Source of the DNA: Liolophura sinensis
Lineage: Eukaryota > Mollusca > Polyplacophora > Chitonida > Chitonidae
Direction of reading: 5' to 3'
NCBI RefSeq assembly: GCF_032854445.1
Contig: NC_088305.1
Span: 11,287,606 to 11,351,605 of the forward strand
Length of the DNA: 64,000 nt
The notes below the pieces were generated by a model. It searched no databases. It was not told the DNA's origin and saw nothing but the letters and a program-made list of their open reading frames with translations. The position numbers and the translations under genes were made by a program. Positions 1 through 52,117 of this stretch are shown here, in pieces (position 1 is the first letter of the stretch; each line of letters starts with the position of its first letter).

Positions 1-3000
1 GTTTTGGAGTTACACTACTCGAGTAAACGGCGTTTTATTTAGCCATGATCAGGAGAGTTCTGATGGTGGCTAAATAAAATGCCAAAGTATTGAGTCACAA
101 TGAAGTCTTTTTTCAGAGTTACACTACTCGTGTAAACAGCATTTTATTTAGCCATGATTATGAGAGTTCTGATGGTGGCTAAATAAAATGCCAAAGTATT
201 GAGTCACAATGAAGTCTTTTTTCGGAGTTACACTACTTATGTAAACGGCGTTTTATTTAGCCATGATCTGGAGAGTTCTGATGGTGGCTAAATAAAATGC
301 CAAAGTATTGAGTCACAATGAAGTCTTTTTTCGGAGTTACACTACTCGTGTAAACGGCGTTTTATTTAGCCATGATCAGGAGAGTTCTGATGGTGGCTAA
401 ATAAAATGCCAAAGTATTGATTCACAATGAAGTCTTTGTTCAGAGTTACACTACTCCTGTAAACAGCATTTTATTTAGCCATGATCTGGAGAGTTCTGAT
501 GGTGGCTAAATAAAATGCCAAAGTATTGATTCACAATGAAGTCTTTTTTCAGAGTTACACTACTCGTGTAAACAGCATTTTATTTAGCCATGATCAGGAG
601 AGTTCTGATGGTGGCTAAATAAAATGCCAAAGTATTGAGTCACAATGAAGTCTTTTTTCAGAGTTACACTACTCGTGTAAACAGCGTTTTATTTAGCCAT
701 GATCAGGAGAGTTCTGATGGTGGCTAAATAAAATGCCAAAGTATTGAGTCACAATGAAGTCTTTTTTCAGAGTTACACTACTCGTGTAAACAGCATTTTA
801 TTTAGCCATGATTATGAGAGTTCTGATGGTGGCTAAATAAAATGCCAAAGTATTGAGTCACGATGAAGTCTTTTTTCGGAGTTACACTACTCGTGTAAAC
901 AGCATTTTATTTAGCCATGATCTGGAGAGTTCTGATGGTGGCTAAATAAAATGCCAAAGTATTGATTCACAATGAAGTCTTTTTTCGGAGTTACACTACT
1001 CATGTAAACAGCATTTTTTTTAGCCATGATCAGGAGAGTTCTGATGATGGCTAAATAAAATGCCAAAGTATTGAGTCACAATGAAGTCTTTTTTCAGAGT
1101 TACACTACTCGTGTAAACAGCATTTTATTTAGCCATGATCTGGAGAGTTCTGATGGTGGCTAAATAAAATGCCAAAGTATTGAGTCACAATGAAGTCTTT
1201 TTTCGGAGTTACACTACTCTTGTAAACGGTGTTTTATTTAGCCATGATCTGGAGAGTTCTGATGGTGGCTAAATAAAATGCCAAAGTATTGAGTCATAAT
1301 GAAGTCTTTTTTCAGAGTTACACTACTCGTGTAAACGGCATTTTATTTAGCCATGATCTGGAGAGTTCTGATGGTGGCTAAATAAAATGCCAAAGTATTG
1401 AGTCACAATGAAGTCTTTGTTCAGAGTTACACTACTCGTGTAAACAGCATTTTATTTAGCCATGACCTGGAGAGTTCTGATGGTGGCTAAATAAAATGCC
1501 AAAGTATTGAGTCACAATGAAGTCTTTTTTCGGAGTTACACTACTCGTGTAAACAGCATTTTATTTAGCCATGACCTGGAGAGTTCTGATGGTGGCCAAA
1601 TAAAATGCCAAAGTATTGATTCACAATGAAGTCTTTTTCGGAGTTACACTACTCGTGTAAACGGTGTTTTATTTAGCCATGATCTGGAGAGTTCTGATGG
1701 TGGCTAAATAAAATGCCAAAGTATTGAGTCACAATGAAGTCTTTTTTCGGAGTTACACTACTTATGTAAACGGCGTTTTATTTAGCCATGATCTGGAGAG
1801 TTCTGATGGTGGCTAAATAAAATGCCAAAGTATTGATTCACAATGAAGTCTTTTTTCAGAGTTACACTACTCGTGTAAACAGCATTTTATTTAGCCATGA
1901 TCTGGAGAGTTCTGATGGTGGCTAAATAAAATGCCAAAGTATTGAGTCACAATGAAGTCTTTTTTCGGAGTTACACTACTCGTGTAAACAGCATTTTATT
2001 TAGCCATGATCTGGAGAGTTCTGATGGTGGCTAAATAAAATGCCAAAGTATTGATTCACAATGAAGTCTTTTTTCGGAGTTACACTACTTATGTAAACGG
2101 CGTTTTATTTAGCCATGATCAGGAGAGTTCTGATGGTGGCTAAATAAAATGCCAAAGTATTGAGTCACAATGAAGTCTTTTTTCGGAGTTACACTACTCG
2201 TGTAAACAGCATTTTATTTAGCCATGATCTGGAGAGTTCTGATGATGGCTAAATAAAATGCCAAAGTATTGATTCACAATGAAGTCTTTTTTTGGAGTTA
2301 CACTACTTATGTAAACGGCGTTTTATTTAGCCATGATCAGGAGAGTTCTGATGGTGGCTAAATAAAATGCCAAAGTATTGAGTCACAATGAAGTCTTTTT
2401 TCGGAGTTACACTACTTATGTAAACGGCGTTTTATTTAGCCATGATCTGGAGAGTTCTGATGGTGGCTAAATAAAATGCCAAAGTATTGAGTCACAATGA
2501 AGTCTTTTTTCGGAGTTACACTACTTATGTAAACAGCGTTTTATTTAGCCATGATCAGGAGAGTTCTGATGGTGGCTAAATAAAATGCCAAAGTATTGAG
2601 TCACAATGAAGTATTTTTTCGGAGTTACACTACTTATGTAAACGGCGTTTTATTTAGCCATGATCTGGAGAGTTCTGATGGTGGCTAAATAAAATGCCAA
2701 AGTATTGAGTCACAATGAAGTCTTTTTTCGGAGTTACACTACTTATGTAAACGGCGTTTTATTTAGCCATGATCAGGAGAGTTCTGATGGTGGCTAAATA
2801 AAATGCCAAAGGATTGAGTCACAATGAAGTCTTTTTTCGGAGTTACACTACTTATGTAAACGGCGTTTTATTTAGCCATGATCAGGAGAGTTCTGATGGT
2901 GGCTAAATAAAATGCCAAAGTATTGAGTCACAATGAAGTCTTTTTTCAGAGTTACACTACTTATGTAAACGGCGTTTTATTTAGCCATGACCTGGAGAGT

Positions 3001-4030
3001 TCTGATGGTGGCTAAATAAAATGCCAAAGTATTGATTCACAATGAAGTCTTTTTTCGGAGTTACACTACTTATGAAAACGGCGTTTTATTTAGCCATGAT
3101 CAGGAGAGTTCTGATGGTGGCTAAATAAAATGCCAAAGTATTGAGTCACAATGAAGTCTTTTTTCGGAGTTACACTACTTATGTAAACGGCGTTTTATTT
3201 AGCCATGATCTGGAGAGTTCTGATGGTGGCTAAATAAAATGCCAAAGTATTGAGTCACAATGAAGTCTTTTTTCGGAGTTACACTACTCGTGTAAACAGC
3301 ATTTTATTTAGCCATGATCTGGAGAGTTCTGATGGTGGCTAAATAAAATGCCAAAGTATTGATTCACAATGAAGTCTTTTTTCGGAGTTACACTACTTAT
3401 GTAAACGGCGTTTTATTTAGCCATGATCTGGAGAGTTCTGATGGTGGCTAAATAAAATGCCAAAGTATTGAGTCACAATGAAGTCTTTTTTCGGAGTTAC
3501 ACTACTCGTGTAAACAGCATTTTATTTAGCCATGATCAGGAGAGTTCTGATGGTGGCTAAATAAAATGCCAAAGTATTGATTCACAATGAAGTCTTTTTT
3601 CGGAGTTACACTACTCGTGTAAACAGCATTTTATTTAGCCATGATCAGGAGAGTTCTGATGGTGGCTAAATAAAATGCCAAAGTATTGAGTCACAATGAA
3701 GTCTTTTTTCAGAGTTACACTACTCGTGTAAACAGCATTTTATTTAGCCATGATCTGGAGAGTTCTGATGGTGGCTAAATAAAATGCCAAAGTATTGAGT
3801 CACAATGAAGTCTTTTTTCAGAGTTACACTACTCGTGTAAACAGCATTTTATTTAGCCATGATCTGGAGAGTTCTGATGGTGGCTAAATAAAATGCCAAA
3901 GTATTGAGTCACAAAAAGTCTTTTTTCGGAGTTACACTGCTCGTGTAAACAGCATTTTATTTAGCCATGATCTGGAGAGTTCTGATGGTGGCTAAATAAA
4001 ATGCCAAAGTATTGAGTCACAATGAAGTCA
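1..4030. repeat. 109-bp satellite array with an internal hairpin, about 37 copies
   Basis: Direct head-to-tail repeats with a constant 109-bp period (the word GAGTTACACTACT recurs at 7, 116, 225 and so on). The array begins before the window and ends near 4028. Each unit has an inverted repeat, GCATTTTATTTAGCCA paired with TGGCTAAATAAAATGC, around a loop of about 21 nt that can form a smaller stem (ATCAG/CTGAT). Two unit types occur: one with CTCGTGTAAACAGCATTTT and one with CTTATGTAAACGGCGTTTT; the second dominates about 2090-3250. Single-base deletions occur near 1635 and 3913. No coding frame. It probably lies in an intron of, or just upstream of, the gene with exons from 4731 on. Confidence 0.97.
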
Positions 4031-24700: not shown

Positions 24701-27700
24701 TCATCAAGAGAAAAGTGTATGGATTTTGAATTATCTCACAAGGAGTAATCTGGACAGTCCCCAGATCCATTGAGTTTGACAGTCTCAGTTTCCTCCCCTT
24801 GCTTCATAAGCCTGTATTCCTGCAGGAGGACCTAAACAAAATGCAGAAGGAAAATATGTCAGCTAAAATACTGATTTCAGATGCTGGTAGATGCACTGAA
24901 ATACAATTGGGACATTTCTAAAAGTTTAAACAGGTCTAGGTTTACAAAAAGTAAACTAAAAATTCTAAATTCTACTTTCCCAAATTTCCCATTTTAAGAA
25001 ATTTGCTTATTTTCAACAAAAACAAGCATGATTTTGAAAAGAAGCATGCTGGCTTCTTTTATCAAACAAATATTATCTTCGTTAATGCAAAAGGTTTTCC
25101 ACTGAACGTGTGCTTACCTTCACCATAACAGTCAGAACAACCACAACAGCAGCAGGCAGAAGCAGGGTTGTGGTGAGCTTTACCAGGGTCTGAAAACACA
25201 CAATCATTAACTCTCTTATCTACCTGTAAGTACTTCCTGATGTATACAAAATATTACTTACTGCCGCATCAAAACAACTGCTGCTGAATTGACAGATCCA
25301 TATAATACATCTCATAATTTTTACTTACAGTTGTATACATGTATTTGGTGTATTTTTACTGACAGATCTGTCTATTACTGCTGGATACATGTATTACATG
25401 TATATTGACTGACAGATTTGCCTATTACTTACTGCTGGATACATGTATTACATGTATATTGACTGACAGATTTGCCTATTACTTACTGCTGGATACATGT
25501 ATTACATGTATATTGACTGACAGATTTGCCTATTACTTACTGCTGGATACATGTATTACATGTATATTGACTGACAGATTTGCCTATTACTTACTGCTGG
25601 ATTTTTACTGATGGATCAGCTGTTACTCACCGAAGGATCCAGGTATTACGTACTAAAGGATCTGTGTGTCACTTACTTAAGGATCCATAAATTACTTACT
25701 GAAGGATCAGTGTATTACTTACTGAAGGATCTGTGTGTCACTTAATGAAGGATCCATAAATTACTTACTGAAGGATCCGTGTATTACTTACGGACGGATT
25801 TGTGCATCACTTGCTGAAGGATATGTGTATTACCTTAATATTGAAGGATATGTGTATTACTTATTGAAGCATCCATGATCCACGTATTACCTACTGATGG
25901 ATCCATGTGTTACTGACTGAAGGATCCACATTTACTCCATGACAGATCCGCGAGTTACTTACTGAGGGATCCGTGTATTACTTACTGAAGGATCCATGAA
26001 GTCAAACTCAGCAGCACAGGTGTACAGCATGGTGTGGAAATTCTGGAAGTTACTAAACTTGCTGCGGAAAATGTCAGAAATATGAGCCTGTTTGGGAGAC
26101 AAAAACACCCAAAATAAAAATGAGGCAGGGCAGAAATACACTAGCACAGGGTAACACATGGATCACAACTTCTATTTGTTCAGTAAACTCACGGAATGCC
26201 ATTGGAAGAAGTCAGATATACACTGCATAAAGGTCTTCAGCAGTCAGAATAATTCACAAACAAATTGCCCAGCTGCACCAAGAACTAGTCCTAAAATCAA
26301 TAATGAAAACAAAAGTTTGACTGAAATTTTGGGAGGGAGGGATCGTTCTCAAAATATTAAAACAGTTATGATGATTAAGTTATAGGGGGCATTTTTCTTT
26401 TTTTTCCATAAAATCCTTTTGAATACTATTCTCAAATCAGTAACGTGTCTTTAAGTTATTTATTTATTTGGTTGGTGTTTTACGCTGTACTCAAGAATAT
26501 TTCATTCATACGACAGCGGCTAACATTATGGTGGGAGGAAACCGGGCAGAGTCCAGGGGAAACCCACGACCATCCGCAGGTTGCTGGAAGACCTTCCCAC
26601 TTACAGCTGGAGAGGAAGCCAGCATGAGCTGGACTTGAACTCACAGCGACCACATTGGTGACAGACTCCTGGGTCATTACGCTGGGCTAGCGCGCTGACC
26701 AACTGAGCCACAGAGGCCCCTGTTAATTTTAATAGAAAGTCTTTTGTCGGAGTGATACCAAATTGTTATTATAATACAACATTCTGTCATATTCAATATA
26801 ATATCATCTTAGTCTGATGGAATGTTTATGTTGAATTAATATAATATGTGTGTCTTTATTTAATCCACATTATAATCCTTCATGCTTTTTATACATGTAC
26901 ATTTACATATAGACAGTTTGAATAGATGACCATTCTTACCTCCATATCTGGAGAGGTGTACTTACATCATCAGCCACACCAAGGAGCCTGGAGAGAGAGA
27001 ATTTGAGACCCAGTGTTCCACCGACCAATAGAACTCCCTGAACAACCTGTGAGACAAATAAAAAACTTGATGTTATGGTTTTTCTTGAATATTTTATTTA
27101 CTTGTGCTTTATGATGCTTTTACAAGCTTTTTCATTTTCATGATCGTGGTGAAGTTTGTTGGGATTACTGGTTGAATGAAAAAAATCACCACATGTGATG
27201 GTTGAAACCAAGTGAACTATGGGGTGTAGAGAAACAATCTGCACAGTTTTATGAAGTCTGCACCTTTAGAGACATGCACAAATCATTTTGGGTGCCATTT
27301 TCATAATAACTGTCCGCATAAATTCCACTGAAAAAAGTGCTTTAGTGGTTGAAAAGGTTGAAGATTTACAGTATATGTACATGACATACACAGCCCGGAA
27401 ATTGGCAGGATTTTTTTGTTATCTTTATGCGAGTCTCATGTTTCTTCACACAAAAATCAGAATTAACCTTCACACGAGATACTAAAGGCATGAAATTACA
27501 CATACAAGCATGTTAATGTTGACCACTGATTTCTTCACTACTTATCTCAGATTTAGATTTACAAATCTTGAAATAATCCAGAAGACATGTTTGTAGCTTA
27601 CCCAAATGATGAGACGGAAGCCTGCTCTGTGTATGACTGGCTCCAGCAGAACAATGGCCTGTAAACAAACACAGGGCAGTTGTCACTGCATTTCTATCTA

Positions 27701-30700
27701 AGCAGATATGTTCAGAAATGTTGCCTTGGTGAGACTCATGCAGGAGCAAGATAAGTATTGTCAATGCACCAAACAATATGCATCCTACTCTAAATACTCT
27801 GAAAGTCCCTTTTAATCTAGACAACAGCCTTGAACATGATAGGCGTAACACTGATATGGGTACGGTAACACTAACTTGCTTGTTTCTTAACCTGTTTGGT
27901 ATCTACATGTAGCGTTTTAACATTACTTTCATTATTATTTTGGTCAGACCATGACAGTATTTTGGTCAGACCATGACAGTATTTTCTCAGCAGTTTAGTC
28001 TCAATGCCAACATACCGTCTCATAATCATGATGTTACCAAAGGCTATGAAGTGTTAACTCCGTCTCCATAAACTTGTTTATGGAGTTTAACATTATGAAT
28101 TAGTAAACTCAGTTTTACCTGTGTTTTGTTTGCACTAATATGAACGTCAATATGAAGAGCTTGTGGTGTTATGTTTCATCAATGAAAGACTATTTAGGTA
28201 CGGACCATCTCACAGATGCCCCAATAGGTGCCAGATTAAAACAAACTTGCCTCATGTCCCAAAATCTAAACATTCTGTACCTGTAAAGAAAGGTGTGTTG
28301 CAGTTGTAAGGGAATCTTGTAGGTAGGTTGACAGACAGCTGGCTTATACGACACCCACTGATATATCTATGCTTTCACTTTCGTTATTCAGACTTACCAG
28401 AACTGTGAAAAGGCAGGAGGCATAGAATGAGGTGAGTAACATCTCGTTACCGAACAGGAGGATGAAACTCACAGCCAAACCAATCTGTATGAAAAGGTGA
28501 GCAAAGGATTAACAAGTGAGAAGGACTAACATGTGAGCGAAGGATTACCAGGTAAGCAAAGGATTAACAGGTGAGAAGGATTAATAGGTGAGCAAAGGAT
28601 TAACAGGTGAGCTAAGTATTAACAGGTGAGAAGGATTAATAGGTGAGCAAAGGATTAACAGGTGAGCAAAGGACTAACTGGCGAATGAAAGATTAACAGG
28701 TGAGTATGTACAATTAGTGGATATTTAGTTTACTAATGAGTGAACTTTTATTCTAGAGTAAACCAACCTATAAGTGCTATATATAATACAACCATATAGT
28801 ATACATGCAATAACTTTTTAAGGTAATGAACATGGTCTTTTACTTAGTTTTTCAGGTTGGACAGATTCATACCTAAATGACCCCAAAAAACCATATCAAA
28901 AAGGATTTATCATTTGTAAAAGGACAGATAAATTTCTAAAGAAGCTAACCTTCTTGAGTCTCTAATGATTTGTTTCATTTTTATGCTCGATTGTATTTCC
29001 CACCGCTCAGGCAGTTTGGCGCAGGGTGGCTTTGAACTCACTCACTCACAGGTGAAAGCCATGACTGAGAGAAACAAGTAAGGCAGCACAAACTCACCAG
29101 TTGACCTGTCAGAATGACCAGTGTTTTCTTTGCTGACAGGTATCCAATGACATACGTTCCAAACACAGCCAGAGTCTGGATGAGCAAAGCAAACTGTGCA
29201 AACTGGGCAAAAGATAAAAAAAAAAATTCTTTTTATTCAGGTCTTTGGTCAAACCCTGTTCACTGTTTTGGAACAAATGAAAAGTTGAAGTTGTGAGACG
29301 ATTTTCTCTTTATGCTAGCATTTCAACCAACCATTCCAATCTGAGTTGATCAATTTTAAATGGGATTAGATGAAACAAAATATGTGTAGCTATTGGAAAT
29401 GTTGTTATTGTTGTTTTGAAAAAGCATGAAAAAACCAATTTCATGTTTTCATGACATTACTGCAAAGTTTGTCAATTTTTTCCCATCCTATTTCCAATAT
29501 CACTGAAAAAAGTATTTATTTATTTGATTGGTGTTTAATGCCATACTCAAGAATATTTCACTTATACGACGACGGCCAGCATTATGGTGGGAGGAAACCA
29601 GGCAAAGCCCGGGGGAAACCCTTGACCATCCGCAGGTTCCTGACAGTCCTACCCACGTACGGCCGGAGAGGGAGGCCAGCATGAGCTGGACTTGAACTCA
29701 CAGTGACCGCACTGATGAGCAGCTCCTGGGTCATTAAGCTGCGCTAGCGCACTAAACAACTGAGCCACAGAGGCTCCCCAATGCAAAAGTCAGGGAGTCA
29801 CCACATAAAAGCCTGGTACACTGCCTGGTTATGTCTGCTGGTACAAAAAGTCACCTGAAGCATTCAGGGGCATCGCTGATGCTGGCACTGTGCAGGCCAG
29901 AGGAAAGATGCCGAAGTGTACTTTCATCATACCCATTGGGCTTCTTCTTAAAGGCAATGAAAACACTAACCTGAAGTATATGTCTGATGAAAGCACTTAA
30001 AAAAACTGTCCACAAAAACAATTGGGTTGTACAATGACCATTTCTAACCATATTGGCACCACTGACGTCACATCAGGTCTTATATACGTACTTATATTTT
30101 ATATAAGATCTGAGAATGCATTTGCCAAATGGACCCTCTGAAACAGACTATTTCAAGCAAAATGGTTTTAAAACCATTTTACTTGGTTGGAAAAATTTCA
30201 AAAAAAATAATTAGATCTATTCTCCTGGACAGTGTTTAATGGTCTTTCATCTGATATATACTTCATTTTAGTGCTTTCTTTGCCTTTAATGAAGAATACA
30301 CAGATAGCAAAGAATCCACAATACAAACAAAAACAGATTTTGCTAACTGAACCTTCGGAAATTGCACTTAAGCAGTTGTGTCCAAGCCTTAATTAGTTAA
30401 CTCACCTGCCAGGGTAACATGAAGCAGATGATAGCCAGGGCCAGGGACAGACTGGACTTGTAACCAGGCTCTCTACACCTGCGCACAGATTACAAAGGTA
30501 CGCCATTTATTTACATATTTAATTAATGGATTGGTAGCATAATAATAACACCCTAGTTAACAGTACAGTATAGTCTCACTATAAGACGCCTCGATATAGG
30601 GCATAACTTTATCGGGGATATAACACTACCAAAATCTTGTCCAACCCCCCAAAAAGTGTTTGGTGTACTTGCGTGCGACAAGGCTAAGATTATGAATGGC

Positions 30701-41245: not shown

Positions 41246-44200
41246 ATGACGGGGATGGACGTTGTCAGCAAATCGATGGACGAGGGTCACACGAGGCGCA
41301 ATTATCGCCCAAAGTCAGAAATACCTGCCTTTTTGAGGTCAGACCCTCAGTGTAAACTGAGTGAAGAAAAAGCAAAGGAAATTGAAGATAAGAGGAGGTT
41401 CAGACTCATGAAATTCCCCACGCTGAGTGGAAGATTTGACTTTGATTCTTTTCAGAAAGACATTCGTAAATATCCTGGCTTCAAACGCTGGAACGAAGAA
41501 GGAGATTTTAGACCCAGTGTACCATGCAGAGACTATGACAATATCGTGGACCCAGTGTCAGGTTTTGTGAGTGCTGGCGGGGATGTGGACCGTAACACTG
41601 GGCATTCTAAAATTAAATCTTTGGTACAGTTACAGAATACACCTAATTCTACCGAACCTTCTAAAATACATTCGGTTAGGTCACACAGTGCACTCGTACC
41701 AACAGAGACCAACAAAAGTCTGCAATATGAACCTGGGATGCCAACTTTGTGGAACAGCAGGAAAATACCTGATGCCAGACTCCGTGCCGATTTAGGGGGT
41801 AAATGTTGTAATTTTCAGTTGGTGTGGTTTGTTTAATGATGTATTTCCCTGTGTAATAATAACAGCATACACATTTATGATAATTCATTGCATATTGAAT
41901 TTCATCATGTGGATGAAAATTTTTTTACATGCGCCATTATTACGCCATTATATAAGGTGAAGGAAAACATGAAATGAAAAAGACATATAGCATTTAAGAT
42001 GAACCACAAAAAAAAACATATGCAATATAATACATGTTAAGATAAATTCCAGTAAATCTTTTTACCACTTTTATGTACGGTTTATGTTGTGTGTATATTT
42101 ATGTATATGTTTAAAAATCTGTTCTGTTTTTAAGGATGTAAAGTATCAATTTTTGAATCCTTCATTTATTCAAGTTTAGTACTGTGACGAGAAATTCTGA
42201 AAAACAGAGGTGAGAGTAAAATATTAATGTTGAGCTATCACTACTTTGTATTACAGGGTGGACAAGTGCAAAGGACCCACGGCTTCCAGAAAAACCTAAG
42301 CTAAGAGGAACTTTGGTAAGTATTATCTAAGTAAATTTCTTGTCCTTCGTTCAGTATTTAATTATTTATTTGGTTAGTGTTTCACGACGTACTCAAGAAT
42401 ATTTCACTTATACCACGGCAGCCAGCATTATGGTGGGAGGAAACCGCACAGAACCCAGGTAATACCTACGGTCATCTGCAGGTTACTGGTTGACCTTTCC
42501 ACGTACCGCCGGAGAGGAAGCCATCAGCATGAGCTGGACTTGAACTCATAGCGACTGCATTGGTGAGAGGCTCCTGAGTCATTACGCTGCCCTAGCACGC
42601 TAACCAACTGAGCCACGAAGGCACCCTAATTTCTTCAGTAAGACATGGCCTTGGATCAGAAAGTTTGTTGGGTACCTGGGTGAAGTGTAATTCTTTAAAC
42701 TTAGCACTCCAGGGTCCCAACCACCATCGCATAACCTGAAATATTTTTTGAGTATTTGTATATGCAGGGTTGTAGGCTATTAAAATATTTAAATAAATCA
42801 GATGGTTTATCATCTTCAAAATGCCTTCGATAATTACCCCAACAAGTCATGAAGTCGTGACACATGGCAATATAGCATGACATTGTAACTCTGGAATGAA
42901 ACAAAGCATGGAGAAGTTAATAGTGCACCATTAATTAGTTTGGTCTACAATTTTGTTTCCAGACAATCCCAAAGCCAGTTGTAGAACAGAGCAAGGAGAA
43001 TAGGGATCAACTTTCCCTGAATTACATGTACACAACATCTACTTCGAGGTAAGTGTTTCATGTCACATACATGTTCAGCTTGTTTTGCAGGTGAAATTCT
43101 ACTGTAAGTCACACTTCGAAAAAGTCCGCAGTTACTTGCCAATGGTCAGTGGTTTTCTCCAGCAGTCAATTAATGTATCGTAAAGCCGATATCCCCAACA
43201 AATTTGAAAAATAAAAGGAGCTACCATGTTTAAAATAGAGGGTCTTTTCTTTGCCTCAGCAGAGATGTATCATTGCATTCAGTGTGTACAAATTTTAACT
43301 TGTGTCTAAATCCTCGTTTGTTTTGAATACTCGTGTTCAAATGTAACTTGGCATGTTGTGTTTTGAGATTTTTAATCTACTGCTCTTTTGATGGAACTAT
43401 TTCCAAATCTGAAGGGTGGTTTGGTTGGAAAGGCAGTTGGTGCTGAGCATCAAGTTAGGTGATTGTTTAGGGGCCAGTGTTTGTGAAATGATTGCTCCAT
43501 AGAGAAAAAGTTCCCTCTGACTCCCTGGTTCCACTGCCTATGATCAATACTGAAAGAGTGCTGACACTGACTAGAATTTAATTAATGGAAGTGTTTAATT
43601 CAGGTGGCAGTCTCTTTGGTACATGTAAAAGCAAAAACAGTTTGCTGAAAAGCAAAAGATTGCATCAGTTAAAATGAAGGGAACATCAGGAGAGGCCACT
43701 GATAATTGTCTCTTAAGATATGTTTACTTGTATGATTAGCTTTTTGTTCATGGAGTTACATGCAAATATGGTCATATTGTAAGATGTTTGAGAGCGGTAG
43801 ATCCAGGGTCAATCCTGGGTCCAGTCACACCTAAGGCATTAAAAGAGGAAGTTGTAACTTCCTCGCTTCACTTGGCGTTCAGCATGAAGGGGATAGTGCA
43901 ATGACTGGTTGACCAGTATCAGTATAATGGCTTGGGCGGGTTGACTTACTTGCCTTTGGTAAGGCATCTCAGTGAAGCAGGACTAGATAAAAGAGCAGTG
44001 GAAATCCGTCCTGCAACAAGGAGGCACATTGCATCCACTCTAAGGATTCCTTCGTCGTCATAGGACTGAAAAATTTTTGAGTACGACGTTAAACCCCAAG
44101 CACTCACTCACTCTCTCAAATTGTAAGGTATGGACTATACTGCCAATTGCCAGGTACTCAGACATCACATTGATATTCAGACAGTGTTTGAGAACAGTGT

Positions 44201-47200
44201 TTAAGTATTTTTTACTTGTTGGTATTAAGAGCTATTCCTACATTAAAAACTATTTTGACATCAGAAACCCTGAATACCAGCTACCCTAATTCCTCAACCT
44301 TTTGGAATATGAAAGAGCAAAGTTCAGTGCAATTTATGCACATTTTTAATTTGATTTTGGAGAACAACATTGGTTTGACTGGCCAGTTTCAGTGCTTCAC
44401 AAAAAGCATAATTTTATCAGTTTACACAGAATAATGCCTTTAGACTATACATGAAGAAACAACTTGCCAATGTGCGAAAAGGTTGAAGAATTACAATATG
44501 CGGTTCATGAAACACTAAATAGAATTCAAACATTTGAAAGCATTTAACTTCAGTAAAAAAAATCCCCAAAAAATCAAAGGAAAGTATTTTTACACGTTAG
44601 AGATGATGCCTTTCTGATGAGCCTCACCCTACATGATATAAAATTTTACCCACAAACTGGCATTTTTAGAGGTAAATAACTGTCACAAAATTTTATTTTT
44701 GGTGCTGAAACTTTTGTCATGGACAAAATTTATTGTCATTTAGGTTACTTCATTTTTTAGTTTTAGCTTTCTTTTTCACTTTAATATGTGTACTTATTCA
44801 GAGTTATGATATTTTTATATTACAGACAGTACAGGGAAGTACCGTGGGATGAGATGTTACAAGCTAAGACGTGGATGCCTGCAAGCACCCTGGAGCAGAG
44901 GCCAGACATGATCTCACACAGATTCTCTACCAAGAAATATGACGCCGTGCCACAGGACTGGCAGGTCAGCTTACCTCATTTGGCCTTTTTTTTTTATTTG
45001 GTTTAAATGTATACAGAATACACCCTGATTGGCTGGCAGTGGAGATAGCATTTCCTGGGTTAAACCCTGCAACTTTTGTCACGCTTGAATAAATATGTCA
45101 TATATAAGATTCAGCTTATCTCAACTTATCTCACACCAGCCAATCAGAAAGGATTCAGTATCCCTGAATTTTGTCACTGATACAATATGGCACCTGTATA
45201 TATTATGAGGAAATCAGAGTGCCACACAGTGAAACCAGCTTGCTATCAAAGCCACCAGAACAATGGATTAGCAATGGAATTTTCAAAAATTTCCTCCGCA
45301 GGCTGGCCGGAATTGTGGCATTGTGTCAGGTGGTTTGAAAATGCGGAACTTGCAAAACTCCTTCCTGCTTGTATCAAGATGATCCAAAGCTGTGAACTCA
45401 TTTGTTATTTCCTTTATTACTTCACAATTATCGGTGCATGTGTGCTCATAAAACATATATCAAGTACACACGCACTGCAACGTTACAGATGAAAACGATG
45501 CGTTCTACTGTCTTTTCCCATTGTTTTCTTGAAACTTTGGGAGAAAAATTTTCTCCCTAAAAAACATGGCTTTGTGGATTTCAACCTGATGGTGTCATCT
45601 TGTGAGATTTGTTAAAAAGGCTCTCTGACAAGGTGCCAGTTTCTTTCGTTTCTAAACTGGGCGGCTCTTTTATGTACATCTGGCACAGTTTTAGCAGTGA
45701 TCACTGGTCGGTTAATTTTATATTTTCAGTAAAATAATAGAGCTATAAAACTTTACAAGCATAACTATCGTTATAAATAAAAATAAATATAAATATAAAT
45801 AAAAATATATATATTATAAAATATAAATAAAAATAAATGGGAAAATTCATCTTCTTATTCTGCCAGATCTTAATATCTTTGTTGTGATTTTTCTGGGGAT
45901 TTTTTTTACGGCTTTCCGATCAGGTATAAATGTGCTGCAACAGAATAAATTGCTGCAAACAGTCCACATTTCCCACAAATTAGATGATTTTTCAGTTTGA
46001 TTTTAATTTTTATACCCTCCTCGGCCACACTGGAAAAAGATTCATTCTGCCAGTAAAACAGAAATTTTCACTGATGTGGCCTAAATTAAACTAATGCACA
46101 AACTACATCTTGTGTCAAACTATGCTGCTGCTCTCTTTTTAGGCAACTGGGAGAAGTTGGGACTGGTTTCAAGGAAGGCAAACTTACTATGGCAACAGAC
46201 CTGTCACTTTGTGAGTTCTCAAAATTTCCGAGCGGTAAAGATTGTAGAAATTTTTTATATGAACAGCACAAGAATATGCACAGTTGCCTTCAGTTGTTAT
46301 CGAATGATCCTCGGGAATGTCACATTGCTAATGCCAAAGTGCAATGTGAAATATATTTGGCGCAGTCGAAAAAAAATAAAAAAATAAAAGATATATAAAC
46401 ATTGAAGGTGTATAATATATGAAATTTCTCTAGCAGGTATATTTTGTATACTGAAGTCTAATTGTTTTACTGGTTTGTTTTCTTGTAGTTGTAGCCCTTG
46501 TCCCAGAAAACAACAGATTCCCTTGTACAGGTGAGTAGGTTTTTGGCATGGAGATACTTTGCCAATAAGTTTATGCAACTTGTATCAAATTTATGCAACA
46601 AAATTTTTGTTTAATACAAAATTGTTTAATACAAAATACAGTTAGATACTGCAGGATCACTTGTTGATGGAAATTCTCTCAAAAATATGAGAAAAAACAT
46701 CACTAGACCAAATGAATATATGCATTAATAAAATATCTCACAGAAAATTTAAAAAGGATAATACATTTATACTTTTGTAATGTAGCACAACCAAGATATT
46801 GCAGTTCAAAATAAACATAATTGTGCACATGGAGACAATGAAGGCATGCTTTCAGTTTTAACCAATCAGTTGCTGGTTATTTCTATAACTCACGTGGCCC
46901 AAATGTGTGTTTTACCTTTTTTTAATTTTTTTTTGTTTTGATTTGTTTTTTTTTTTGATTGGTGTTTTACCCTGACTCAAGAATATTTCACTTATACGAC
47001 GGTGGCCAGCATTATGGTGGGGGAAACCCACGACCATCCGCAAGTTGCTCACAGACCTTGCCACGTAAGGCTGGAGAGGAAGCCAGCATGAGCTGGACTT
47101 GAACTCACAGCGACCGCATTGGTGAGAGACTTCTGGGTCATTATGCTGCACTAGCGCGCTAACCAACTGAGCCACGGAGGCCCCTGTTTTACCTTTTAAT

Positions 47201-50200
47201 CACATGTGCGTGTAGTTCAAGAGACATGACATTGTGTTTCCAGTTGCTGGAACATGACGCATCCCATGGCTTTGTAAGAATTCTTGATCAAAAGTGGATT
47301 TATAGAGTTGGCAAACAAGTCAGAAAAAATATCATTGACTATTCAGGTCTGTTCCTACCCCTCTTCTGAAATAATTCAAGCTATATTATTTGATGTCTTT
47401 TCTTGTAATAAATATGAGAGATTATTTTCTGTCTTGCTTTTTGTTCGTAAAATCACATACAAAAGTATGGAATAACTTAGAGATGTCTAATCACATCAAT
47501 TAGGCAAGCAATCATGTTTTCAGTCAAGCAGACATATCTCATCAAATCCTTTTATGATTGCTCTTCTTCACCTTCCAGTGGCTGCACAGGGGGAGACAAC
47601 TTGGAGGAGATTGATCATCCTGGGGTAGGGTTTGAGCCATACACGGTCAAGCGAGTGGACATTCCCAGATATGTGGAGACTGGACAGTACGTACACAGCT
47701 CTTGAACTAGTTAATTGTTCAAGTTAATTTTTGCAAGTTAATTCTCATCCATTTAAAGGACAAGACAGCACCGGGCTAAAACATATTTCAGTCGAAAGCA
47801 GGATGGTCAAGCTTTCTAAAAAGTATCATACTCTATTATTTGATGAGATTTCAACGATTAACATGTAGAACAAAATGGCAATACTGCACAAATGGCTGGT
47901 GTGAATTGAGGTAGACATGTTAAGAATTTTATCCAATCAAACACATTGCTATCAAATTGCGTGGCTTAAGCTGTGGCGTAACCTTTACCCACTCACTCCA
48001 TGAAGTGACATATGATAACACAGAACTACTGCATAAGACATCAGTTTGAGATCGTTTACAATGATTTAGTCATTTGAAGCTGAAGGGCCATTTTGTGCAG
48101 TGTTGTGGGATAGGTGTATATCATTTACAGACCAGCACAGGTGTAAAATTAGTTGATTTACAAGCAAGTGTTTAGTTTCTAAACACTAAACAAATATCAG
48201 AGTGAGTGCAAAATTCATTAGGGATTCTGTTTTCTTTTGTAAAATACAGTAAAATTATTGAATCGCCGTGTTCAAACCGAGGTGCTTTCTCTGATGTCCG
48301 TGATAACTATAACATTGAAGGATAAAATCCAGAGAAAGTTGAGTGCTTAGATCAGCCTTGGAGGTGTTTAGATTTATTTCCATTTTTTTTCCAGAATTGA
48401 GCGTGAATCTAGTTGTTCAACAATCCATTTGTAATTTGTAAACTTTTAATAGGGGTCAAAATCACGAGCATAGACCCTCCGGAGGCTATGACCTGAATCA
48501 GAAAATACCCCGGCCATGCAACCATAGCTAGGCTATTTAAACAGGGTCACTGGAGTTACTTGTAAATGATATAGTAGGTCTGCTGTATCAACAGTTCAGG
48601 CAGTGGAAGAAAAATTCTTCCAGTATGTCCAGTTTCCTAGAAAACGGTGTTTATAACTTGGGCCTTCATCGCTGCAGTCCACTACTTTTATCTGCCATAG
48701 GCTACTGCTTAAGCCATTGTACGGAAAATACCTTCGACGATAGAAAGCTAAAGTAAACGTGGCATAACCTTGCCCTCGATAATGGAGACGTGCTGGAGCT
48801 GTGTCAAGACAAAGTTTCACGAAACTTTTAATGGGTTGAAAAAAAATCTAAAAACATGTTTAATGGCGGGTTAGGATTCTGTGAAGGGTAGTCTTTCAGT
48901 GGACGTAAACAAATGTAATTATCATATCAGTTGTCTTCATTGTTGTCTCATAACTAGAATGTTTCATTCATGTAATTAAAGCCAAAAAAAAGCTAAAATA
49001 TGAAGTAAAGTTCATCATTAAGAAAACTAAAAACTATGCGGAAAAATACTTTCGTTTATTTCTTTCAGAATTTTTTGGAGAATGTTGAAAGGCATTAAAA
49101 TATTTGAAAATTATGGTGGGCTTTATAAGCCATACTGACGGTATCTGGGAATTCTGATGTCACATCGCCTTTTTTTCGTGATGTTCACCATAGGGAAGGA
49201 ATTTTTTTGGGAACATTATTTCAGTAATCATGGGTAAAAAGAGTTATTCCAACATTCAGTGTCATGTTTAAAGTTGGATAAACTTCCTGTGACGTCAGAG
49301 TTCCTAACCTCGGATAGTATGGTCCATAAAGCCCACAACAGAAGTCAAATATTTGAACGCCGTTAACTGTTTTCACAAAAATCTAAAAAAAAATAAAGGA
49401 AAGTATGTATATGCATAGTTTTAAATGGTCTACTCAGTGATGACTACCTTGATTTTTAGAGGTTTTTTCTTTTAATTCAGTATAAGTTCAGATACCAGCA
49501 GTGATTTCAAGCATGTTTGATGTAAAAACAAAAAGGGTCCTTCATGTGAACAATTTTGTGGATAGTGAGACAGCAATTACATTTGTTTTTAACTTGTATA
49601 AAACAAACTTGTGTCGTACCATTTTTTCACTTTGCTAATGATAAGAATTATTTTAATATATCGTATACCTGTATGTATTGTACATTTATTCACGGATATG
49701 TTTGATATTTTCAGTCGACCTAATATCCCAGGTTATACCGACTGTACCCTTTACCATGGTCAGTGGGCCCCTATGTATTGTACATTTATTCACGGATATG
49801 TTTGCTATTTTCAATCGACCTGATATCCCAGGCTACACCGGCTGTACCCTTTACCGTGGTCAGTGGGCCCCTATATATTGTACATTTATTCACGGATATG
49901 TTTGCTATTTTCAATCGACCTGATATCCCAGGCTATACCGGCTGTACCCTTTACCATGGTCAGTGGGCCCCTATGTATTGTACATTTATTCACGGATATG
50001 TTTGCTATTTTCAGTCGACCTGATATCCCAGGCTACACCGGCTGTACCCTTTACCGTGGTCAGTGGGCCCCTATGTATTGTGCATTTATTCACGGATATG
50101 TTTGCTATTTTCAGTCGACCTGATATCCCAGGCTACACCGGCTGTACCCTTTACCGTGGTCAGTGGGCCCCTATGTATTGTGCATTTATTCACGGATATG

Positions 50201-51918
50201 TTTGCTATTTTCAGTCGACCTGATATCCCAGGCTACACTGGCTGTACCCTTTACCGTGGTCAGTGGGCCCCTATGTATTGTACATTTATTCACGGATATG
50301 TTTGCTATTTTCAGTCGACCTGATATCCCAGGCTACACTGGCTGTACCCTTTACCATGGTCAGTGGGCCCCTATGTATTGTACATTTATTCACGGATATG
50401 TTTGCTATTTTCAGTCGACCTGATATCCCAGGCTACACCGGCTGTACCCTTTACCGTGGTCAGTGGGCCCCTATGTATTGTACATTTATTCACGGATATG
50501 TTTGCTATTTTCAGTCGACCTGATATCCCAGGCTACACTGGCTGCACCCTTTACCGTGGTCAATGGGCCCCTATGTATTGTACATTTATTCACGGATATG
50601 TTTGCTATTTTCAGTCGACCTGATATCCCAGGCTACACCGCCTGTTCCCTTTACCGTGGTCAATGGGCCCCTATGTATTGTACATTTATTCACGGATATG
50701 TTTGCTATTTTCAGTCGACCAGATATCCCAGGTTACACCGGCTGCACCCTTTACCGTGGTCAGTGGGCCCCTATGTATTGTACATTTATTCACGGATATG
50801 TTTGCTATTTTCAATCGACCTGATATCCCAGGCTACACTGGCTGTACCCTTTACCGTGGTCAGTGGGCCCCTATATGTATTGTACATTTATTCACGGATA
50901 TGTTTGCTATTTTCAGTCGACCAGATATCCCAGGCTACACCGGCTGCACCCTTTACCGTGGTCAGTGGGCCCCTATGAACTCTGGATATTCTCCAGGGAT
51001 GACGGAGGCAACAACAGCAAAAACCTACAGGTTGGTTGTTTTGTGTTTAAGATGAACTTTCTTCTTTGCTCATCAAAATTCTTTGTTTATTTATTTATTT
51101 GATTGGTGTTTTACGCTGTACTCAAGAATATTTCACTTATGCGTGGGAGGAAACAGGGCAGAGCCCGGGGGAAACCCACAACCATCCGCAGGTTCAAAAT
51201 TCTTTGTTGATATAGTTATATTTAACGTATACAGTACCATATTCGCTCATGCTTTTGCCAATTTTTCATATTTGAACTGCAGTTGGTTAGTGCGCTAAAG
51301 CAGCGTAATGACTCAGGAGGGATCTCTGTGAGTTCATGTCCAGCTTAGGCTGGCTCCCTCGCCGGGCGTACATGGGAAGGTCTGTCAGCAACCTGCGTAT
51401 GGTTGTGGGTTTTCACTGGGCTCTGCCTGGTTTCCTCCCATCATATTGCTGGTCGCCGTCGTATAAGAAATATTCTTGAGTATGGCGTAAAACACCAATC
51501 AAATAAATAAATAAATATTTAAGCTGTAAAAAGCCCTGCGCCAATAACACAGATAGATAATTTCTCCAACACTTAGTTTTCAAACTGTGAACTAAGGAGA
51601 TCGCTAAGCTGTAACAAAGCTCATTCAAACTCCAGATCTGGCCAGACACAGAGTATGGCATCAAGTAACAAAAAAAGAAATCAGTCAAATATATAAGCCT
51701 GATAAATAATATATTCTAATGTTTTATATGCATTTACTCAGAGGATTTGGGCAGGACATAATTGTTACCGTATGCCTATTTCTTTCTGCAGGATTCTCCC
51801 GATGAAACCCAACTCCTCAGAGTTCAAACGCGAATCCGTCATGTCTAAGATGATCACCACAGTTCCCCCTCATAACCCCTTCAACCAGATCAGCGCAGAT
51901 GAAGTTCCCGCCCAGTGA
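41246..51918 (+). CDS. Putative axonemal/sperm microtubule inner protein, nine exons, 431 aa
   Basis: Exons: 41246-41798, 42257-42315, 42963-43048, 44826-44964, 46143-46210, 46489-46530, 47579-47686, 50917-51030, 51792-51918 (TGA at 51916). Every junction has AG/GT and matching phase; total 1296 nt with stop. The start is the first ATG in frame; a second lies three codons on. Notable segments: RFDFDSFQKDIRKYPGFKRW (about 78-97), REVPWDEMLQAKTWMP (236-251), RSWDWFQGRQTYYGNRPVTF (283-302), the run QIPLYSGCTGGDNLEEID, and RPDIPGYTGCTLYRGQWAP (from about 353). No membrane segment or signal peptide. PGYTG-type motifs near the C-terminus occur in ciliary microtubule inner proteins; the closest I can recall is SPATA48/SPMIP7, but this is from memory and only moderately sure. 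An X-box-like site in the promoter fits a ciliary role. Confidence 0.85.
42355..42628 (-). mobile_element. Full-length SINE copy, antisense to its host gene
   Basis: TTTAATTATTTATTTGGTTA tail to head CTAACCAACTGAGCCACGAA, in intron 2 of the axonemal-protein gene. Confidence 0.9.
43795..44107 (+). mobile_element. 5'-truncated V-SINE-like copy (ACTC-tail family)
   Basis: GCGGTAGATCCAGGGTCAAT through TTGAGTACGACGTTAAACCC and CACTCACTCACTC. Flanking ATTGTAAG words (about 43776 and 44119) may be its target-site duplication. Closely similar to 12703-13069 but lacking the A box. Confidence 0.85.
44288..44497. mobile_element. MITE of the TTCTTCAACC family
   Basis: TAATTCCTCAACCTTTTGGA to GCGAAAAGGTTGAAGAATTA, with internal CAGAATAATGCC and GATTTTGGAGAACAACATTGG; reverse orientation relative to 7250-7480. 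Confidence 0.85.
46921..47184 (-). mobile_element. Full-length SINE copy with target-site duplication
   Basis: Flanked by TGTTTTACCTTTT (46908-46920 and 47185-47197). Head A box GTGGCTCAGTTGGTTAGC on the minus strand. In intron 6 of the axonemal-protein gene, antisense. Confidence 0.92.
47687..49671. other. Intron 7 of the axonemal-protein gene, non-array part
   Basis: No exon recognised. Contains the foldback MITE at 49088-49368; otherwise AT-rich with no open frame of note. A short open frame on minus at 48596-48820 has no splice or homology support. Confidence 0.5.
49088..49368. mobile_element. Foldback MITE with GTGACGTCAG core
   Basis: GGTGGGCTTTATAAGCCATA on the left is mirrored by TATGGTCCATAAAGCCCACA on the right; GGAATTCTGATGTCACATCG is mirrored by TGTGACGTCAGAGTTCC. 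Confidence 0.8.
49672..50916 (+). repeat. 100-bp tandem array of the exon-8 acceptor and exon-8 start
   Basis: Twelve units (exon-like parts start 49715, 49815, and so on every 100 bp to 50815) precede the real exon 8 at 50917. Each unit is about 40 bp of intron end (GTATTGTACATTTATTCACG then GTTTGCTATTTTCAG) plus the first 60 nt of exon 8 (coding RPDIPGYTGCTLYRGQWAP). The acceptor AG is intact before nine of the twelve units and mutated to AA before those at 49815, 49915 and 50815. Each unit leads into the next through AT|GTATTG; the GT is lost in the unit at 49815 and displaced by a 2-bp insertion in the one at 50815. Overlapping 86-codon open frames here are products of the 100-bp period. 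Confidence 0.95.
51088..51194 (-). mobile_element. 5'-truncated SINE with target-site duplication
   Basis: Flanked by CAAAATTCTTTGTT (51074-51087 and 51195-51208). Carries the tail and the body to CCGCAGGTT, with the CGACGGCGGCCAGCATTATG segment deleted. Confidence 0.92.
51272..51517 (+). mobile_element. SINE copy in plus orientation
   Basis: Head GCAGTTGGTTAGTGCGCTAA, B-box region GAGTTCATGTCCAGCTTAGG, then the body and tail ACACCAATCAAATAAATAAA. The only long copy of this family in the window on the plus strand, in intron 8 of the axonemal-protein gene. Confidence 0.9.
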
Positions 51919-52117
51919 ATAAGGCCTTAAAATCCTCACCACAATAACCTCTCATAAACAAAAACAGACAAAAAAGCAAATTTTATATCAGTACACATAC
52001 TTATTTATCAATGTGTTTTCAAGTGCAATTTGTTTATAGAACATCATATACAGAATATTTTGGTAGATGTACATGGATTTAGACCTGGTTTCAGCATTTG
52101 AATGAAATGGGATTTTT

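Follow-up and report, generated by a model that had tools for sequence, protein, structure and literature searches.

Minisatellites of the kind called mirages reportedly had an earlier description, that of Canestro et al. in 2002. In amphioxus the name mirage was given to tandem repeats that span intron-exon boundaries, and Adh3 data and globin RT-PCR are reported to suggest that regular splicing is not disturbed by them (PMC3087553; PMC3902484). In BflGb6 the units described there combine an intron end with an exon start, in BflGb9 they are copies of the 3' boundary of an exon. They lie beside the true boundary, and many of them, though short of all, keep the AG or GT; the chiton array that is the subject of this work is built alike. 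A single-step relative is found in the potato RdRp gene, where an intron was gained by duplication of a boundary and the duplicated segment, again as in the chiton, carries the acceptor, the pyrimidine tract, a putative branch site and the start of the exon, as described in PMC4974935. The variable internal tandem repeats of human genes are also comparable in as much as they are minisatellite expansions at exon-intron boundaries, according to the account in PMC2812944.

The array adjoins exon 8 of an intact nine-exon SPATA48/SPMIP7 gene of the chiton Liolophura japonica. All positions given below, unless a locus is named, are those of the window, i.e. the whole analysed stretch of 64,000 nucleotides. 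The gene model lies on the plus strand, has an open frame of 431 codons (431 aa) and contains introns of 278 to 3230 nt. Exon 1, taken from the ATG, spans 41246..41798 and has the donor GGG|GTAAAT; it is followed by exon 2 (42257..42315), exon 3 (42963..43048), exon 4 (44826..44964), exon 5 (46143..46210), exon 6 (46489..46530) and exon 7 (47579..47686, donor ACA|GTACGT), the last of which ends within a codon (CA plus the T of exon 8). The true exon 8 (HRPDIPGYTGCTLYRGQWAPMNSGYSPGMTEATTAKTYR) is at 50917..51030 with the donor CAG|GTTGGT, and exon 9 with the stop codon is at 51792..51918. Exons 7 to 9 together match the Pfam profile PF15073 (SPATA48) with an E-value of 3.2e-21 (76.4 bits, cut-off 27), and PDB chains of SPMIP7/SPATA48 were matched with E-values of 8.4e-08 (8otz_Cl, phmmer), 2.2e-07 and 0.023. 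A PF15073 search of the chiton's own genome returned one place, exon 9 of the same gene, i.e. no SPMIP7 paralogue was found by this exon-by-exon search, in which short exons may be missed.

The array itself (49672..50977, plus strand, TRF score 2391) has a period of 100 with 96% matches and 13 copies, i.e. 12 copies and, as the thirteenth, the beginning of the true exon 8. A sequence-only reading of this DNA had described a 100-bp unit of intron end and exon 8 start, amplified 12 times in front of the exon, and TRF confirms this description; each unit consists of 40 nt of intron end and 60 nt of exon 8 start. Acceptor-like sites are found at 49715 and then at each 100 bp through 50815, and the true acceptor is at 50917. 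The AG is kept in 9 of the 12 array units, and the GT of the donor at the unit junction (AT|GTATTG) in 10 of the 12. Unit 1 (49675..49774, acceptor 49715) is the most diverged, with 6 differences from the consensus. Three acceptors have been lost by a change from CAG to CAA: in unit 2 (49775..49874) the CAA stands before 49815 and the GT of the mini-donor is lost as well (ATATTG), in unit 3 (49875..49974) it stands before 49915 and the unit's own mini-donor GTATTG is intact, and in unit 12 (50775..50876) it stands before 50815 and a 2-bp insertion lies ahead of the next copy. The proposal that loss of an acceptor is paired with loss or shift of the donor is thus right for 49815 and 50815, i.e. 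for two of the three units, but the third loss, with its intact donor, had been overlooked. Units 4 to 11 (49975..50774) have intact acceptors at 50015, 50115, 50215, 50315, 50415, 50515, 50615 and 50715, and the true end of intron 7 (50877..50916) is identical to the consensus of the units. Via its 2-bp insertion the acceptor-less unit 12 forms one open frame with the true exon 8 (50775-51030), an extension of 34 codons that corresponds to a protein of 465 aa. In a DNA search of the chiton's own 609-Mb genome the sole match was the array itself (best candidates scored, very common words skipped), and a search for structured RNA in 47500-52000 gave no Rfam match at the gathering score. That the array was made, or its copy number altered, by the assembly is extremely improbable: tandem arrays are error-prone and the assembly is based on 14x HiFi data, but the mean HiFi read of 8,347 bp would span the 1.3-kb array (figures given in PMC11068029), the units differ among themselves, and arrays of the same build are found at other genes.

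As to the origin of the array, the motif TATG, standing ahead of TATTGTAC, is common to the left flank and the unit junction, and GGGCCCCTATG is common to the right end of the array and the unit junction. We propose that a tandem duplication across the 4-bp microhomology TATG first copied the last 40 nt of the intron together with the first 60 nt of exon 8, and that the duplicated 100-bp segment would then have expanded and been partly homogenised by unequal exchange, like ordinary minisatellites. The 40-nt 'intron' and the GTATTG 'donor' would be by-products of the duplication junction. Note that unit 12, which lies between unit 11 and the true exon 8 copy, differs by 4 bases from that copy, whereas unit 11 differs by 1; this suggests that there has been exchange between the array and the exon. 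Unit 1 is the most distant (mean of 7.1 per 100 nt vs. 2.5-5.2 for units 2-12). Its divergence may reflect concerted evolution with freer end units, but the opposite end of the array is the true exon, and the values are mean distances. We regard the array as very probably a minisatellite of the mirage kind, located at a 3' splice site and removed with the intron; the history given here, exon definition and the absence of stable array-containing mRNA are the parts of this reading that we infer.

Exon 8 is flanked by introns of 3230 and 761 nt, and because these are long, exon definition is the likely mode of its recognition. If exon definition, which we assume for this species, applies, exon 8 would be recognised as a unit and exon 7 would be joined to 50917, since this is the acceptor nearest to the exon 8 donor at 51030; the array would then be excised together with intron 7. 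Leakage into the array acceptors would lead to premature stops, and the resulting RNA would be expected to be degraded. As the two proximity rules are put in PMC9225289, the exon-centric one would choose the true acceptor, whereas the intron-centric one would choose the first acceptor of the array. Several points count against the mirage reading. One is the near-identity of the array acceptors, which are barely distinguishable locally from the true one because eight of the 12, i.e. those of units 4 to 11, agree with the true acceptor in the final 32 intron bases or more. Another is the classical intron-centric rule, and a further one is an excess of synonymous variants discussed below. On balance we think it most likely that the array is ignored by splicing, unlike a set of new working exons.

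The option favoured by the sequence-only reading was that the units are in-frame mini-exons making an IPGYTGC repeat protein. Units would be joined via the AT|GTATTG donors, across introns of 40 nt (more if units are skipped), and add 20 codons each; up to 9 units could be included, extending the protein from 431 to 611 aa and multiplying the tubulin-contacting PYG-type loop of a sperm microtubule inner protein. We hold this to be very improbable, even though several of the observations behind it are sound. The exon-like part is indeed exactly 60 nt long and ends at AT|GTATTG, in 20-codon phase, the frame is kept whichever one unit is inserted, and in 8 of the 12 array units the encoded peptide is identical to that of exon 8. 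SPATA48/SPMIP7 is, in addition, listed among the PYG-type proteins, whose loop contacts tubulin (as given in PMC10973386), and a translated ladder of such loops would be remarkable for this reason. If true, it would represent a length-variable ruler inside the sperm doublet microtubules, the number of loops changing with the minisatellite. That sperm-forming cells actually splice the array as a variable ladder of 20-codon steps, and make SPMIP7 isoforms with up to 9 extra PGYTG loops, is hard to credit.

The splicing capacity of the units argues against such mini-exons. With a generic donor matrix, trained on other material than this species, the mini-donor TAT|GTATTG scores -5.88, whereas the eight real SPMIP7 donors score 0.19 to 8.84; most GTs nearby outscore or equal it (408 of 640 between about 41301 and 51800, the array's own included). 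The best-scoring donor in the unit is another one, GTG|GTCAGT, situated 44 nt into the exon part, which was absent from the earlier description. Its score of 2.27 is inside the range of the real donors, and GTCAGT is kept at this offset in 10 of the 12 array units. This better donor disrupts the frame: with one 44-nt exon ahead of exon 8 the protein ends at 386 aa, and with three (one combination tried) at 383 aa. It could give introns of 56 nt, or of 156 nt with one unit skipped, whereas the junction donor would leave an intron of 40 nt. If TTCAC, read by eye, is the branch site, the candidate branch A would lie about 18 nt from the mini-donor. In the human test genes of PMC11291888 splicing drops by about 90% or more when donor and branch site are less than 47 nt apart, and the shortest human intron mentioned in PMC4463651 measures 43 nt. 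An intron of 40 nt is also below the range sampled in this genome, where the smallest of 105 apparent introns, taken as gaps between neighbouring profile matches and unlike annotated introns in this respect, is about 92 nt. The two smallest dynein gaps (n=56) are 92 and 154 nt, and the smallest kinesin gap (n=49) is 165 nt. The dynein sample used all 86 rows, in which 56 pairs of neighbours satisfied the gap rule; one gene contributed three of these gaps, among them that of 92 nt. For kinesin, 92 of 132 rows were picked by eye, giving the 49 pairs, and the myosin rows were left out. The weakness of GTATTG and the shortness of 40-nt introns had been raised as counter-points by the proponent of the mini-exons, and both are borne out by these figures.

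The variation among the units points in both directions. In the coding frame, the 13 copies contain 6 synonymous and 5 non-synonymous kinds of variants, with 2.6 synonymous kinds expected (P 0.012). For the 12 array units alone the synonymous kinds are 6 of 11 (P 0.008), and for the array-private changes, i.e. those unshared with exon 8, they are 4 of 9 with 1.7 expected (P 0.048). In this test the changes are placed randomly on same-letter bases, CpG effects being outside the model, and the variant kinds are few and interdependent. The earlier count of about seven synonymous against five non-synonymous kinds needs a small correction, in as much as the excess is real and the five is right, but the synonymous kinds are six. 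The excess slightly favours the mini-exons, though the real effect is small, and exchange with the selected exon 8, passing the constraint of the exon to the array, could be an alternative cause. Amino-acid changes, on the other hand, number 1 in 3 acceptor-less units and 6 in 9 acceptor-bearing units (small numbers). The acceptor-less units thus preserve the peptide at least as well as the splice-competent ones, which runs against the ladder. Variation is also higher in the exon part than in the intron part (pi 0.049 vs. 0.024), the difference in variable sites (10 of 60 vs. 4 of 40) being not significant (Fisher P 0.39).

The array might also have a regulatory role, i.e. surplus acceptors and 44-nt donors could divert some of the transcripts to degraded, stop-containing forms and in this way tune or lower SPMIP7. 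The nine intact acceptors and the retention of GTCAGT at offset 44 in 10 of the 12 units fit such a decoy. Extending any of the nine acceptors to 51030 results in a premature stop, at 387 aa in 8 cases and at 472 aa in 1, and in 8 of the 9 cases the stop of the extended exon sits 210-1210 nt upstream of the last junction. We nevertheless judge a regulatory decoy improbable: no sign of selection was found, three acceptors have been lost, and amphioxus mirages are reported not to yield aberrant mRNA (PMC3087553; PMC3902484). Some leak into the array is likely, while a selected regulatory role is putative. The sequence-only reading had offered a decoy acceptor array as its second option, and it was structurally right about the surplus acceptors; it is the selected role that lacks a sign of selection.

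Minisatellites are common in this genome, as 6 of 10 4-kb stretches taken at round coordinates hold an array (period at least 15, at least 4 copies), and arrays at splice boundaries are found in other genes as well. In a dynein heavy chain gene (locus L015, C1:95578961-95582308), an exon at L015:1501 (PF08393, E 2.2e-28) is preceded by 21 copies of about 65 bp, each containing the acceptor region plus the exon start (array at L015:91-1536). The AG is kept in 6 of the 21 copies and the other 15 read TTGAT. An in-frame TAA interrupts the typed representative, consensus-like unit of this dynein array, so that an array built like the SPMIP7 one carries a stop in the frame that mini-exons would need. 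Judged from sequence features, namely donor strength, intron size, the pattern of variation and this comparison array, the mini-exon ladder appears unlikely.

Donor sites are affected too. In a minus-strand Dpy19-like gene within the window (PF10034, E 4.3e-09), the array 25605-25998 (exon end near 25986) repeats a 23-bp unit of exon end plus GTAAGT, and GTAAG is kept in 11 of 20 matched copies, a count that takes in the true edge and five copies from a neighbouring 54-bp array. This 54-bp array lies at 25321-25602. In a minus-strand myosin gene of C12 (PF00063, E 6e-23), 66-bp units at L060:990-1514 repeat the exon end plus CAG|GTATGT after the exon, with 7 matched copies, true edge included. 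A dynein exon in locus L003 has one diverged duplicate of its exon end. The array at SPMIP7 is accordingly not alone. The window also contains 37 copies of a 109-bp unit at its edge (2-4029, 96% matches). Similar wording (TGGTGTTTTACGC..CTCAAGAATATTTCACTTATAC) was seen by eye near 42360-42620, 46960-47180, 51100-51190, 51280-51500, 26460-26720 and 29520-29790, and these stretches are probably an interspersed repeat family.

In 60 partly overlapping dynein and myosin loci (L003-L032, L043-L072), repeats cross 4 of 120 exon edges (in L003, L015, L060 and L066, the last with one repeat) vs. 39 of 360 positions taken at random in the flanks (Fisher P 0.0099); the edges are the ends of profile matches, i.e. 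inexact exon ends, so that the figures are rough. In a window test of the same loci, with 60 windows on each side, 5 on the low side and 1 on the high side contained repeats, vs. 30 of 240 control windows. A related look at L001-L032 showed one downstream repeat in L024. Targeting of exon edges by arrays was tested and found no support, the edges being if anything depleted. Repeats that cross boundaries are tolerated, untargeted and, on these rough figures, somewhat depleted at edges.

It is worthwhile to consider what such arrays mean. For SPMIP7 itself the array is probably ordinary. The cases listed above indicate that boundary-spanning minisatellites exist in a mollusc genome too, at acceptors as well as donors and in several genes. 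They represent natural splice-site competition, in which one of several adjacent, almost identical acceptors has to be picked, and with them the intron-centric and the exon-centric proximity rules could be tested against each other directly in vivo. They also allow a look at the raw material from which introns may be gained. Among the titles listed in a narrow search of one open-access library, none concerned a mollusc mirage.

Compared with the potato RdRp gene, in which a single duplication used an exon-derived GTAAG donor and 106 junction RNA reads are given (PMC4974935), the chiton array has many copies and a weak junction donor, and is known from sequence. The human repeats lie in recent segmental duplicates, and changed splicing is supported by transcripts in some of them, as the account in PMC2812944 has it. 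The resemblance to amphioxus is closer: the chiton unit spans a true splice boundary with an intron and an exon part, and many, short of all, units keep the splice-site letters (AG in 9 of 12, junction-donor GT in 10 of 12). There are differences in size, as the chiton has 12 units of 100 bp, whereas the two BflGb6 haplotypes are described with 6 and 3 units of 150-160 bp, and in the kind of evidence, since splicing was checked by RT-PCR in the cephalochordate, while the mollusc array comes from one assembly (PMC3087553; PMC3902484 for amphioxus). In its build the array looks like the amphioxus mirages, i.e. the kind is known and what is added here, by this analogy, is its occurrence in a mollusc.
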